Made by a program: the position numbers and the translations under genes
DNA from: Deltaproteobacteria bacterium
Lineage (GTDB): Bacteria > Desulfobacterota > Syntrophia > Syntrophales > UBA2185
Reading direction: 5' to 3'
Assembly: GCA_026388545.1 (NCBI GenBank)
Contig: JAPLJS010000107.1
Span: 1 to 64,000, forward strand
DNA length: 64,000 nt
Notes under the pieces: model-generated
Told to the model about the DNA's origin: nothing
Databases searched by the model: none
The model's input: the letters and a program-made list of their open reading frames with translations, nothing else
Part shown: piece by piece, positions 31,073 through 36,992 of the stretch
Layout: the number at the start of each line of letters is the position of its first letter
How positions within the stretch are numbered: the stretch's first letter is position 1

Positions 31073-31362
31073 GGTAAAATGAGGAACATATAAATAGTAA
31101 TGAGTCTCAAATGAATGATTGTTCCATTATGTTTATTGTAATAGGGAATCTTGTCGAACTCAATCCTTTTTTCATCCGAATATTTTGCCTCTTTCCAATT
31201 GACACATACATATATTTTCCTTATACTCACCCTGATCAAAAGCGGATTCGATCATTAATTTTTTCTTTCATCAAAATATTTTTATTGACGCTCCATACCC
31301 GTGATAACATCGTCATAAATGTAATCAGGTGTCCATTAACCCAGAGTAAAAAAGGAGGAGCC

Positions 31363-33390
31363 ATGGACCTTATAAACCAACTGGATGCTATCTATAAACC
31401 CAAAAGCGTGGCGGTGATAGGCGCTTCGCCTACTGCCGGTAAAATCGGCTATGATGTCGTCTACAACTTGATTCATGCAGGCTTTGCCGGGCCGATATAT
31501 CCGGTCAACCCGAAGGCGGATCAGATTCTGGGTCTTTCAGTTTACAAGCAGATCGGTGATATTTCACCCCCACCGGACCTCGCAGTCGTGATTATTCCGG
31601 CAAAGGCGGTACCCGGCGCCATCGATCAGTGTGGTATAGCGGGGGTCAAGGCCGCTGTCGTTATAACCGGGGGATTTGCTGAAGCAGGCCAAGATGGTGC
31701 AAAGCTCCAGGAAGAGCTGGCCGATACGGCATGCCGCTATGGTATTCGGGTAGTAGGCCCCAACTGCCAGGGGGTAAATAATCCGCACCATAATCTCTGT
31801 GCCTCCTGGCCGTTGCTTACCATGAAGGGTCGAATGGCCTTCATTTCCCAGAGCGGGACGGTTGGTGCGGCACTCATGGACTGGGCCAGCGAGGAACATC
31901 TCGGCGTAAGCGTTTTTGTCAGTCTGGGCAACCGAGCCGATGTCGATGAAGCAGATTGCATCCGGTATTTTAACCAGGATCCTCATACCAGGGTAATCGC
32001 CCTCTATATCGAGGGTGTAAAGCGACCGGTCGACTTCCAAAACGCCCTGGCCGCAGCCACTAAACCTGTTGTCATTCTCAAATCCGGGCGCACCCCGAGA
32101 GGCCGTATCGCGGCGGAGTCACACACCAAATCACTGGCGGGAGTGGATGCCGTTTATGACGCTATCTTCAAAAAGTACAACGTGCACCGTGCCGATACCA
32201 TTGAAGAACTCTACGATTATGCCAAAGCACTGGCCCATATGTCAAAGCCTCCCGGAAGAAGGTTACTCAATATCACCAGTTCGGGAGGAGCCGCGATAAT
32301 AGCAATCGACCAGGCGGAAAAACTGGGTTTCGAGACGCCAACACCGAGTACCGCCCTCAAAGAACGTTTGCGTGCGATCTTGCCCGCCCACTGCGCAGTT
32401 GATAATCCTATAGATCTTACCGGAGACGTCATCGGCGATCCGACCCTGTATACCAAAGTGATTGATGCCGCCAGGGCTGACTACGATACTATGGTCATTA
32501 TTTTTGGCGACCCGATTTCCGGGGCCTCTAAAATCGTTACCCCGGATGCCTCTGAACTGGTGATTTTTTTAGGCGGCGCCGATGTCGAACGGGAGGAACG
32601 TCTTCTTATCCACGAGCGAGGTATTCCGGTTTTTCCTGCTCCCGAACGTGGTCTCAAGGCATTGCATCAATTCTTCCGGTTTGACAGCCGACCCATTTCT
32701 CCTTCTTTACCCCATGCATCGACTTCCGGTTTGCATCTGTTGCCCGCCGGTGAGTCATTGGCATTGCTGGATAAAGCCGGTATCCCCGCGGTTGCCGCGC
32801 TACTGGCTACTTCACCCGAAGAGGCTGTGGCGCTGGCTCGCGATGTTGCCGCGCCGGTCGCACTCAAGATAGCCTCATTAGATATAGCCCATAAAAGCGA
32901 TGTAGGCGGTGTACGTCTCAATCTATCCACTGATGAAGAAGTGCACACAGCGTATCGGGAAATTATGGCCGGCGCCGCCTCACATGCCCCCAATGCCCGG
33001 CTGGAAGGGGTAACCGTATCCCCTATGGCCAGGCCCGGCGGCATGGAAGTTATTGTTGGAGTTTTTACTGACCCTCAGTACGGTCCTACCCTGATGTTCG
33101 GCCTGGGGGGGATTTTTACCGAGATATATAAAGATGTACAGTTCTGCCTGCTGCCTGCGTCAGAGGAGGAACTGCGGCAGACGATCCGCTCTGTCACCGG
33201 GTACCCTTTGCTTGCCGGTGTCCGGGGGCAACCGCCCAGGGATCAGGCGGCACTTGTAGAGGTTATGAAAGGAGTCTCCCGATTGGCGGTCGGCAATCCC
33301 GATCTTGACCAGATCGATCTTAACCCGGTGCTGGTTTACGAGCAAGGCGTCTCTGTTGTGGATGTCCGTATATTCAGGCGAAGTATGTAA
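31363..33390 (+). CDS. ADP-forming acetate/acyl-CoA synthetase, fused alpha-beta subunits
   Basis: Reversible acyl-CoA + ADP + Pi to acid + ATP + CoA enzyme, 675 residues. I choose the ATG at 31363 preceded by GGAGGAG; the open frame upstream to 31111 is AT-rich and non-coding. It contains a CoA-binding Rossmann domain (about 8-100, SVAVIGASPTAGKIGYDV) and succinyl-CoA-ligase-like domains (150-420) with the phospho-histidine-type segment AAESHTKSLAG near 245. A C-terminal ATP-grasp domain (about 455-675) contains LKIASLDIAHKSDVGGV and FGLGGIFTEIYKDV. In fermenting or syntrophic organisms such enzymes conserve energy from acyl-CoA. Substrate range is not visible. Confidence 0.88.
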   Translation: MDLINQLDAIYKPKSVAVIGASPTAGKIGYDVVYNLIHAGFAGPIYPVNPKADQILGLSVYKQIGDISPPPDLAVVIIPAKAVPGAIDQCGIAGVKAAVVITGGFAEAGQDGAKLQEELADTACRYGIRVVGPNCQGVNNPHHNLCASWPLLTMKGRMAFISQSGTVGAALMDWASEEHLGVSVFVSLGNRADVDEADCIRYFNQDPHTRVIALYIEGVKRPVDFQNALAAATKPVVILKSGRTPRGRIAAESHTKSLAGVDAVYDAIFKKYNVHRADTIEELYDYAKALAHMSKPPGRRLLNITSSGGAAIIAIDQAEKLGFETPTPSTALKERLRAILPAHCAVDNPIDLTGDVIGDPTLYTKVIDAARADYDTMVIIFGDPISGASKIVTPDASELVIFLGGADVEREERLLIHERGIPVFPAPERGLKALHQFFRFDSRPISPSLPHASTSGLHLLPAGESLALLDKAGIPAVAALLATSPEEAVALARDVAAPVALKIASLDIAHKSDVGGVRLNLSTDEEVHTAYREIMAGAASHAPNARLEGVTVSPMARPGGMEVIVGVFTDPQYGPTLMFGLGGIFTEIYKDVQFCLLPASEEELRQTIRSVTGYPLLAGVRGQPPRDQAALVEVMKGVSRLAVGNPDLDQIDLNPVLVYEQGVSVVDVRIFRRSM

Positions 33391-33466: not shown

Positions 33467-33922
33467 TCAATTGATTTTTGAATCTTTCGCCAGGTTGGCC
33501 AGGATAAGACCGAAAAAACTATCCCCACCTGACTGGTAATACCAGCCCAGGTGGGTGAAACAATGTGCACATAACGCAACACACCAACTGAATCCAGCAA
33601 ACCAGGTGAATTCGTCCGTGGGAATACCGTAGACAATACATCCCCAGGCTTTTGAAAAGCACCCGATGTGGAAAGTAATGCCCGCGGGATTTTTAAGAAT
33701 GTGCGCATGCTGTCCGTTGACAACGGCGGAATGTTCGACGGTTGTGATCTCGCTCTTGCAATTTTTGCAGAGGATTGACTGTTTCTCTTTTTCTGTTTCC
33801 GTTTCCTGTAATATTTTCGTGCAGACGGCTTCGATTTGATCTTCTGAGGACTGTTTAACTTTCCATGATTGATCTATATGCCGCTGATCCATTGCATTAT
33901 GCATGTGAATAAAGATATCCAT
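33467..33922 (-). CDS. Cereblon-like CULT-domain protein
   Basis: A 151-residue protein without signal peptide. Residues about 48-145 match the CULT domain, the ligand-binding fold of cereblon. Zinc-type cysteine pairs are C52-x2-C55 and C118-x2-C121. The tri-tryptophan cage is at W107, W113 and W127 with aromatic Y129, and there is a terminal GGDSFFGLILANL helix. The Trp spacing (6 and 14) equals that of the characterised bacterial CULT protein MsCI4 (W79, W85, W99) as I remember it. Residues 1-45 are an unassigned N-terminal extension. The fold binds uracil-like and cyclic-imide ligands; the natural bacterial role is unknown. It is divergent from the DUF4124-C39 gene and alone on its strand. 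Confidence 0.88.
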   Translation of the reverse strand: MDIFIHMHNAMDQRHIDQSWKVKQSSEDQIEAVCTKILQETETEKEKQSILCKNCKSEITTVEHSAVVNGQHAHILKNPAGITFHIGCFSKAWGCIVYGIPTDEFTWFAGFSWCVALCAHCFTHLGWYYQSGGDSFFGLILANLAKDSKIN

Positions 33923-34077
33923 GGTTCTTCCGATAAAGCATATGTGTATGGCGGGATAACGTTTTATTATATGATAATTTGTCGCTCTTGGGTTGCCTTA
34001 TTACTCTAGTTTACTTGATTTAGTTTTTCAAATCAAATTATCAAGAGAACCGATCTTTTTGCTAAAGAGGTATAAGT

Positions 34078-34830
34078 GTGAAAGGAACGCCTCATTTAAA
34101 AAAGCTGATAATCATTCTGGTGATTACGGGATTATCACTACCCGTGCGCGCTGCTGATATGTACAGGTGGGTTGATAATGACGGAGTCGTGCATTTCTCC
34201 GATGACCAGCCGGAGGAGACAAGGAAGGTTAAACGGCTGAGGGTGCAGGATTCGGATCTGCAAACGGAAGTCTCTGCCGAAAAACCGGAAGTGCCTGAGA
34301 AAACAGTTACAGTTTCGCAACCGAAACCGCGAAAAGACACGAGGAGAGCGTTTACGAGAACGCAGCAGAAGCTGGAGAATTTCCCTCTGATATTTCAGAA
34401 GCACAATTGGTGTGTCATGGCCAGTATGGAGATGATTTTTCGATATTACGGCTATGATGTGGATCAGGATATGATTTTCCAGAAGATGAAGGGCAGGAAA
34501 AGCAGAGTAAGGGAAGGAGAGGGGCTTGATGACAGGACGGCGGCGCGTTTCTTAAGCAGGTCGGGATTCAACGTCGATCACCGCGAAGGGGGTGATCTGG
34601 AAACGGTAAAAAAGTATATCGATAATAATGTGCCCGTCATGTGGGGTCATGTTGCGCCGGGAAAATGGGAAGGGTCGCGGCACATGTCAGTAATAATAGG
34701 CTATGATGATGTGTACAAGACGGTCATCGTGGCCGATCCCTCTTTTGGCCGTGAATTAACCATCTCCTATGATGATTTCAAGACATGGTGGGGAAGGGCA
34801 AGAAACGTCATGATCGCAGTATCCAGATAA
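34078..34830 (+). CDS. Exported DUF4124/C39-like peptidase
   Basis: A 250-residue protein from a GTG at 34078. A signal peptide (1-26) is followed by a DUF4124 segment (YRWVDNDGVVHFSDD, 29-43), a low-complexity linker, and a C39/papain-like domain (about 100-250). Candidate catalytic residues are C112 in NWCVMASM, H202 in RHMSVIIGYDD and D220 in VADPSFG. C39-type domains usually cleave double-glycine leader peptides or act as stand-alone exported cysteine proteases. No ABC transporter or leader-peptide gene is beside it. It ends 23 bp before a strong terminator. Confidence 0.83.
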   Translation: MKGTPHLKKLIIILVITGLSLPVRAADMYRWVDNDGVVHFSDDQPEETRKVKRLRVQDSDLQTEVSAEKPEVPEKTVTVSQPKPRKDTRRAFTRTQQKLENFPLIFQKHNWCVMASMEMIFRYYGYDVDQDMIFQKMKGRKSRVREGEGLDDRTAARFLSRSGFNVDHREGGDLETVKKYIDNNVPVMWGHVAPGKWEGSRHMSVIIGYDDVYKTVIVADPSFGRELTISYDDFKTWWGRARNVMIAVSR

Positions 34831-36497: not shown

Positions 36498-36992
36498 TTA
36501 CATCAGGTATGTTTGAAGTGCTTTATAGCTGTGAAAATTGGCATCAATAAAAGATGCCCCAACATGGATACTTTCTTCGGAATCAATAACTCTGCGCGAC
36601 TCGCACGTCAAATATATCGGCCTGTTCTCATCGGGCAAAGTGAAAATTATTTCAAATTTGGATGTTTGCGGATCAGCCGATATCTCACATTTCGCATCTC
36701 TGGGGATTGTAATTTGTAAACCACCGAGGGAAATATCTCTTATTGATCCGGTATCTAACTTTGTTTCTCCTGAACCCAATTGTTTAATTAAAGCCGGGGC
36801 CAGAATATCTTTTCTCTGATACTGACGCCTCTCTTTTTTGACACCCTTAAATAACTTACTCTCGCTTACGTATCTGGTCAGGACAATTTCAATTATTGAC
36901 GATACGGACCTCTTTTCGTCTTGAGCAATTGTCGCCAGGGCTTCATGTAAATCCTTGCTCGCACGAAAACATATGATGCTGTTTTTTTTCAT
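36498..36992 (-). CDS. Ribbon-helix-helix/PilZ fusion protein
   Basis: A 164-residue protein. Residues about 5-42 look like a ribbon-helix-helix DNA-binding domain: a strand at SIICFRAS, a helix at KDLHEALATIAQDE, a turn at KRSV, then a helix at SSIIEIVLTRYV. Residues about 52-164 are a PilZ domain with both c-di-GMP motifs intact: RxxxR at R56-R60 (RQYQR) and D-x-S-x-x-G at D86, S88, G91. It is therefore a candidate c-di-GMP-responsive transcription regulator. No partner gene is adjacent on its strand. Copies of a 17-bp motif lie on both sides (35147-35521 and 37173-37189), and these are possible targets by inference only. Confidence 0.8.
   Translation of the reverse strand: MKKNSIICFRASKDLHEALATIAQDEKRSVSSIIEIVLTRYVSESKLFKGVKKERRQYQRKDILAPALIKQLGSGETKLDTGSIRDISLGGLQITIPRDAKCEISADPQTSKFEIIFTLPDENRPIYLTCESRRVIDSEESIHVGASFIDANFHSYKALQTYLM

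Follow-up and report, generated by a model that had tools for sequence, protein, structure and literature searches.

A single-domain cereblon-type CULT protein from a Syntrophales genome and the LonC-type protease genes linked to its sister clade

Among the bacterial members of the CULT family, which were defined together with the family itself in PMC4287342, MsCI4 of Magnetospirillum gryphiswaldense (MGR_0879, 'cereblon isoform 4'; PDB 4v2y and others) constitutes the standard crystal system for thalidomide-type drugs, and the natural role of such bacterial proteins has been open since its structure was described in 2014. The subject of the present analysis is a further CULT gene, located at positions 33467-33922 on the minus strand of a 64,000-nucleotide stretch of DNA, hereafter the window, from a Deltaproteobacteria bacterium of the order Syntrophales (assembly GCA_026388545.1, contig JAPLJS010000107.1). 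This gene is an ordinary further member of the family described in 2014-15 and, being just one more, settles nothing alone. A CULT clade whose genes recur beside that of a LonC-type protease, as outlined below, echoes the role of cereblon in protein turnover and offers a testable partner for CULT proteins and LonC proteases alike, both of which are unexplained.

Like the window protein, MsCI4 comprises a single CULT domain that is preceded by a tail, and all cage and zinc residues are common to the two, although the window tail is about 30 residues longer and the lineages differ. The thalidomide-binding domain of cereblon (CRBN) is the same domain with the same cage, whereas the 151-residue window protein is devoid of a LON domain and of a DDB1-binding region, neither being found by Pfam, as well as of the context of a ubiquitin system. 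In addition, the two differ at position 129, which is Tyr in the window protein and presumably Phe at the matching position of human cereblon. A Y101F variant of MsCI4, which agrees with this assumption, has been described (PMC8900816). Yippee/Mis18 (PF03226) and other beta-tent proteins are related in fold and likewise possess two CxxC zinc pairs (PMC4287342), but the window protein falls below the PF03226 cut-off with no match at E <= 0.1; a PF03226 scan of the whole genome yielded no match either, though its controls gave none as well. Finally, a clade termed GNGxK (members L080-L083 and L095-L098) features the CULT domain with the same cage as the window protein, yet stands apart by an FWGIL ending with an insertion, and its member L082, unlike the window protein, passes the Pfam Yippee-Mis18 cut-off.

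Family membership, aromatic cage and distribution

The gene and its parts are as follows:

33467..33922, minus strand: CULT protein gene, single domain with an N-terminal tail of about 50 residues (ATG, 151 aa, stop)
33485..33772, minus strand: CULT (beta-tent) domain, residues 51-146 (alignment to 8ou9/7ps9)
33536..33604, minus strand: aromatic cage span W107-Y129 (column check in 51 CULT sequences)
33602-33604, 33584-33586, 33542-33544 and 33536-33538, minus strand: cage codons of W107, W113, W127 and Y129, respectively
33758..33769, minus strand: first zinc pair C52/C55 (CxxC), invariant in 51/51 sequences
33560..33571, minus strand: second zinc pair C118/C121 (CxxC), present in 50/50 untruncated sequences
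33773..33922, minus strand: N-terminal tail (residues 1-50), weakly constrained and with conservation confined to the taxonomic family

That this reading frame encodes a cereblon-like CULT protein, as the original prediction had it, was confirmed by phmmer against all PDB chains, where residues 51-146 matched MsCI4 with an E value of 1.8e-25 and cereblon chains with 8.5e-11 at best, the others being weaker. Pfam and NCBIfam contain no model that scored above cut-off, nor was any second Pfam domain detected, the top sub-threshold Pfam match being a plant beta-tent family. The cage, the four zinc cysteines and the N78-P79 loop line up with those of the solved proteins. Moreover, the residues singled out beforehand (Trp 107, 113 and 127, Tyr129 and two C-x2-C pairs) occupy the correct columns relative to MsCI4 and proved near-invariant in an alignment of the window protein with 50 bacterial relatives, one of the 51 rows being truncated: W107 and W113 are present in 51/51 sequences and W127 in 50/50, position 129 is Y or F throughout, the zinc cysteine pairs are invariant except in the truncated row, and N78 and H74 likewise vary little or not at all. 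Taken together, these comparisons support the assignment of the window protein as a genuine single-domain bacterial cereblon-type CULT protein with a complete aromatic cage. A beta-tent fold is predicted from its 43% identity to the crystallised MsCI4, which is normally ample for this purpose; AlphaFold returned pLDDT values of 34.3 for the full length and 37.7 for the domain only, which are low because only four sequences were aligned in each case.

Within the CULT domain, dN/dS amounts to 0.05-0.07 in the two pairs for which it was estimable, synonymous sites being saturated in two others, and indicates purifying selection. A chance or decaying frame is refuted by this ratio together with the match to a solved structure and the near-invariant cage, and its probability is negligible. 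A Shine-Dalgarno-like GGAAG lies 4 nt 5' of the ATG, at the same position in three relatives. The N-terminal extension does exist as predicted, but it comprises about 50 residues before C52 instead of 45 and is not distinctive: its dN/dS of 0.24-0.49 reveals weak constraint, and since 20-80 residues precede the first zinc cysteine in most CULT relatives, a tail of this kind is usual for the family. The label 'cytoplasmic' has as its sole basis that no obvious signal sequence was seen, as judged by eye only.

Of nine genomes of the family, seven carry the CULT gene, among them all five high-quality ones, and a CULT match was obtained in 40/395 genomes of a phylum-wide sample, because of which it is regarded as a retained chromosomal gene. 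It was found in none of 15 sampled genomes from other families of the same order and in none of the phage, plasmid or viral collections, and the protein had no match in defence-system and phage libraries. In the phylogenetic tree, the window protein and MsCI4 both belong to the main clade without being sisters; support is 95/86 for the family of the window and 98/86 upon inclusion of L003. The eight GNGxK/FWGIL proteins form a separate group with the divergent L084 and L085 (100/99). The GNGxK protein that was tested outscores the window protein against cereblon domains (54.6 versus 38.3 bits for 3wx1, 53.6 versus 44.2 bits for 9dom), and its best match is still MsCI4.

Several long CULT proteins (L076, L053, L051, L069) were not counted as fusions, their extra N-terminus being most likely an upstream open frame introduced by a simple gene caller. 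Another CULT gene (L079:2820-3125), which breaks off behind the codon of the second cage tryptophan and whose genome match contains in-frame stops, is probably a pseudogene.

A LonC-type protease and a BFN-domain gene beside GNGxK CULT genes

In five genomes, the GNGxK CULT gene resides in one same-strand block with the genes of a LonC-type protease and a BFN-domain protein, which are arranged in two different orders:

L082:7944-11781: CULT, LonC, BFN
L083:7945-11419: CULT, LonC, BFN
L097:3414-6712: CULT, LonC, BFN, with a CULT-LonC gap of 13 nt
L096:4929-8408, minus strand: LonC, BFN, CULT
L098:1918-5569, minus strand: LonC, BFN, CULT

The protease matches the Pfam families AAA_32, LonB_AAA-LID, LonC_helical and Lon_C, while the third gene product matches BFN_dom. 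The Walker A motif of the protease is degenerate (GPPKAGLT, versus GLTGTGKT in the copy of the window genome), with both catalytic residues, the serine of GDSAS and the lysine, intact. In this it resembles the ATP-independent MtaLonC, which degrades unfolded proteins without ATP and whose natural substrates are unknown (PMC3391209).

The LonC-BFN pair is also encountered without CULT. For instance, at L103:3644-7294, from the same genus as L083, the flanking genes are otherwise shared, and no CULT gene separates a metallo-beta-lactamase-fold gene from LonC. Since the pair exists on its own, CULT looks like an accessory of it that was gained or lost. Within one order, the Lon subtype (at least 69% identity) is present in 11/85 genomes, among which are all GNGxK CULT genomes (6/6), and in the phylum sample it is present in 18/395 genomes including all sampled GNGxK genomes (4/4). 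The corresponding hypergeometric p values of about 1e-6 for the order and about 3e-6 for the phylum are uncorrected for shared ancestry and overstate the evidence, because the samples overlap and relatives are non-independent. The window CULT gene itself is neighboured by C39 peptidase and acyl-CoA synthetase genes and not by LonC; its genome has only one near-full-length LonC relative, a 41% copy that lies on a different contig and carries a canonical Walker A. A literature search, with most subscription journals outside its scope, retrieved no published report of the CULT-LonC-BFN arrangement, which is thus likely, though not established, to be new to the literature.

In another order (L128-L132, L134), the neighbours of the GNGxK CULT gene are not LonC but a gene for a DsbD-like protein (as identified by Pfam in the L080 copy) and, on contigs that extend far enough, a YifB/ComM-type Mg-chelatase gene.

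Possible ligands and function of the CULT cage

In the proposed mechanism, the aromatic cage of the zinc-stabilised protein (W107, W113, W127, Y129 and the N78-P79 loop) would bind a ligand of cyclic-imide type. Among natural ligands, the cyclic imides (aspartimide or glutarimide) at the C-termini of chemically damaged proteins or peptides are the most likely class. Eukaryotic cereblon, which recognises C-terminal cyclic imides (PMC11974815, PMC12117711), provides the model for the binding of imide ends, and the window protein may serve as a reader by which such ends are flagged for proteolysis or repair. This reading is favoured here, albeit tentatively and with somewhat less than even confidence; we infer both the ligand and, for this organism, the hand-over to a protease. 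It is supported by homology to MsCI4 and cereblon, by the near-invariant cage, loop and zinc residues and by purifying selection, and in addition by the LonC linkage, which concerns the sister clade only and supports a reader of cyclic-imide ends without proving it. A more far-reaching version, which we consider rather unlikely, holds that bacterial CULT proteins are degron readers that would detect cyclic imides at C-termini and hand the damaged protein over to a Lon-family protease, the partner of GNGxK proteins being the adjacent ATPase-defective LonC and that of the window clade being encoded elsewhere. If true, the logic of cereblon, a reader combined with destruction, would exist without ubiquitin.

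Several observations speak against a reader of this kind. In the MsCI4-type clade, to which the window protein belongs, neither Lon nor any other recurrent protease was found among the two neighbours on either side, and LonC adjacency was likewise not found for the GNGxK CULT genes of two other orders. Moreover, the remaining 36 CULT genomes in the phylum sample all lack the LonC subtype (p 0.17, within chance), and most LonC genomes of that sample are without CULT. Lastly, the binding of uridine by MsCI4 (PMC4449219) fits another function equally well.

Hence the window protein could instead be a pyrimidine sensor, in which uracil or uridine in the cage would induce folding of the domain's flexible half and thereby let it engage a partner. 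MsCI4, whose cage is the same as that of the window protein, binds uridine like thalidomide and with comparable low micromolar affinity, uridine occupying the same pocket although no biological context for this is known (PMC4449219), and it folds upon binding (PMC4449219, PMC4287342). This alternative is nonetheless improbable in our estimation, as no pyrimidine gene recurs beside CULT genes. We assign a similarly low probability to a role in binding or detoxifying free hydantoins, succinimides, glutarimides or similar imides, originating from amino-acid damage or from the environment, without any part in protein turnover. Such a role would suit the acceptance of many small cyclic-imide drugs by MsCI4 (PMC8900816) as well as the stand-alone position of most bacterial CULT genes outside protease operons, but no imidase, hydantoinase or transporter family recurs beside CULT, and the LonC linkage of the sister clade points to proteins.

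Neighbourhood of the window gene

The window gene is bordered by the following features:

34078..34830, plus strand: head-to-head neighbour, a DUF4124 and Peptidase_C39_2 protein, probably exported (Pfam C39_2, 1.8e-19)
31111..33390, plus strand: tail-to-tail neighbour, an ADP-forming acyl-CoA synthetase (CoA_binding_2, Succ_CoA_lig, ATP-grasp_5; Pfam)
33923..34077, no strand: divergent intergenic region between CULT and C39, 155 bp

The divergent gene for an exported C39-like peptidase, which had been put forward as a neighbourhood to compare across genomes, is real, but it is of little use for this purpose: the head-to-head layout is restricted to the window and three close relatives (L012, L013, L014), i.e. 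four genomes of two genera, and the proposed check for its conservation beside CULT genes elsewhere found it absent outside the family, as well as at L015 inside the family. An imperfect inverted repeat (34004-34021 / 34030-34047) is situated inside the best-conserved intergenic stretch among the four relatives and is possibly a shared operator. On these grounds, CULT and the peptidase might be viewed as a functional pair, in which a reader and an exported peptidase would share one operator. This proposal is very unlikely, given that the layout is not kept beyond the family, that the C39 protein looks exported and CULT does not, and that promoter-like sites in the intergenic region are no more frequent than in shuffles. 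Furthermore, the acyl-CoA synthetase is equally conserved, being found tail-to-tail in the window, L012, L013, L014 and L002 with 81-84% identity within the family; as neither neighbour is kept beside CULT outside the family, local synteny explains both. A wider conservation of the synthetase via L003 was rejected, the neighbour there being only a 34% paralogue.

When 123 near neighbours of other CULT genes were scanned against Pfam, no family appeared in more than four of them. Beyond family synteny, window-type CULT genes have scattered, lineage-specific neighbours and no recurrent partner. Given that its neighbours reflect family synteny only and that the Pfam scan brought out no frequent family, the window-type CULT gene is most reasonably regarded as standing alone.

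In three genomes of one family, homologous alpha/beta-hydrolase-like genes are located directly upstream of CULT on the same strand, with gaps of 2-19 nt:

L058:7052-7831, same strand as CULT: alpha/beta-hydrolase-like gene
L060:8492-9262, same strand as CULT: alpha/beta-hydrolase-like gene
L066:7053-7937, same strand as CULT: alpha/beta-hydrolase-like gene

Elsewhere in the window, positions 36498-36992 on the minus strand encode a PilZ-domain protein with a possible N-terminal ribbon-helix-helix (RHH, below the Pfam cut-off).
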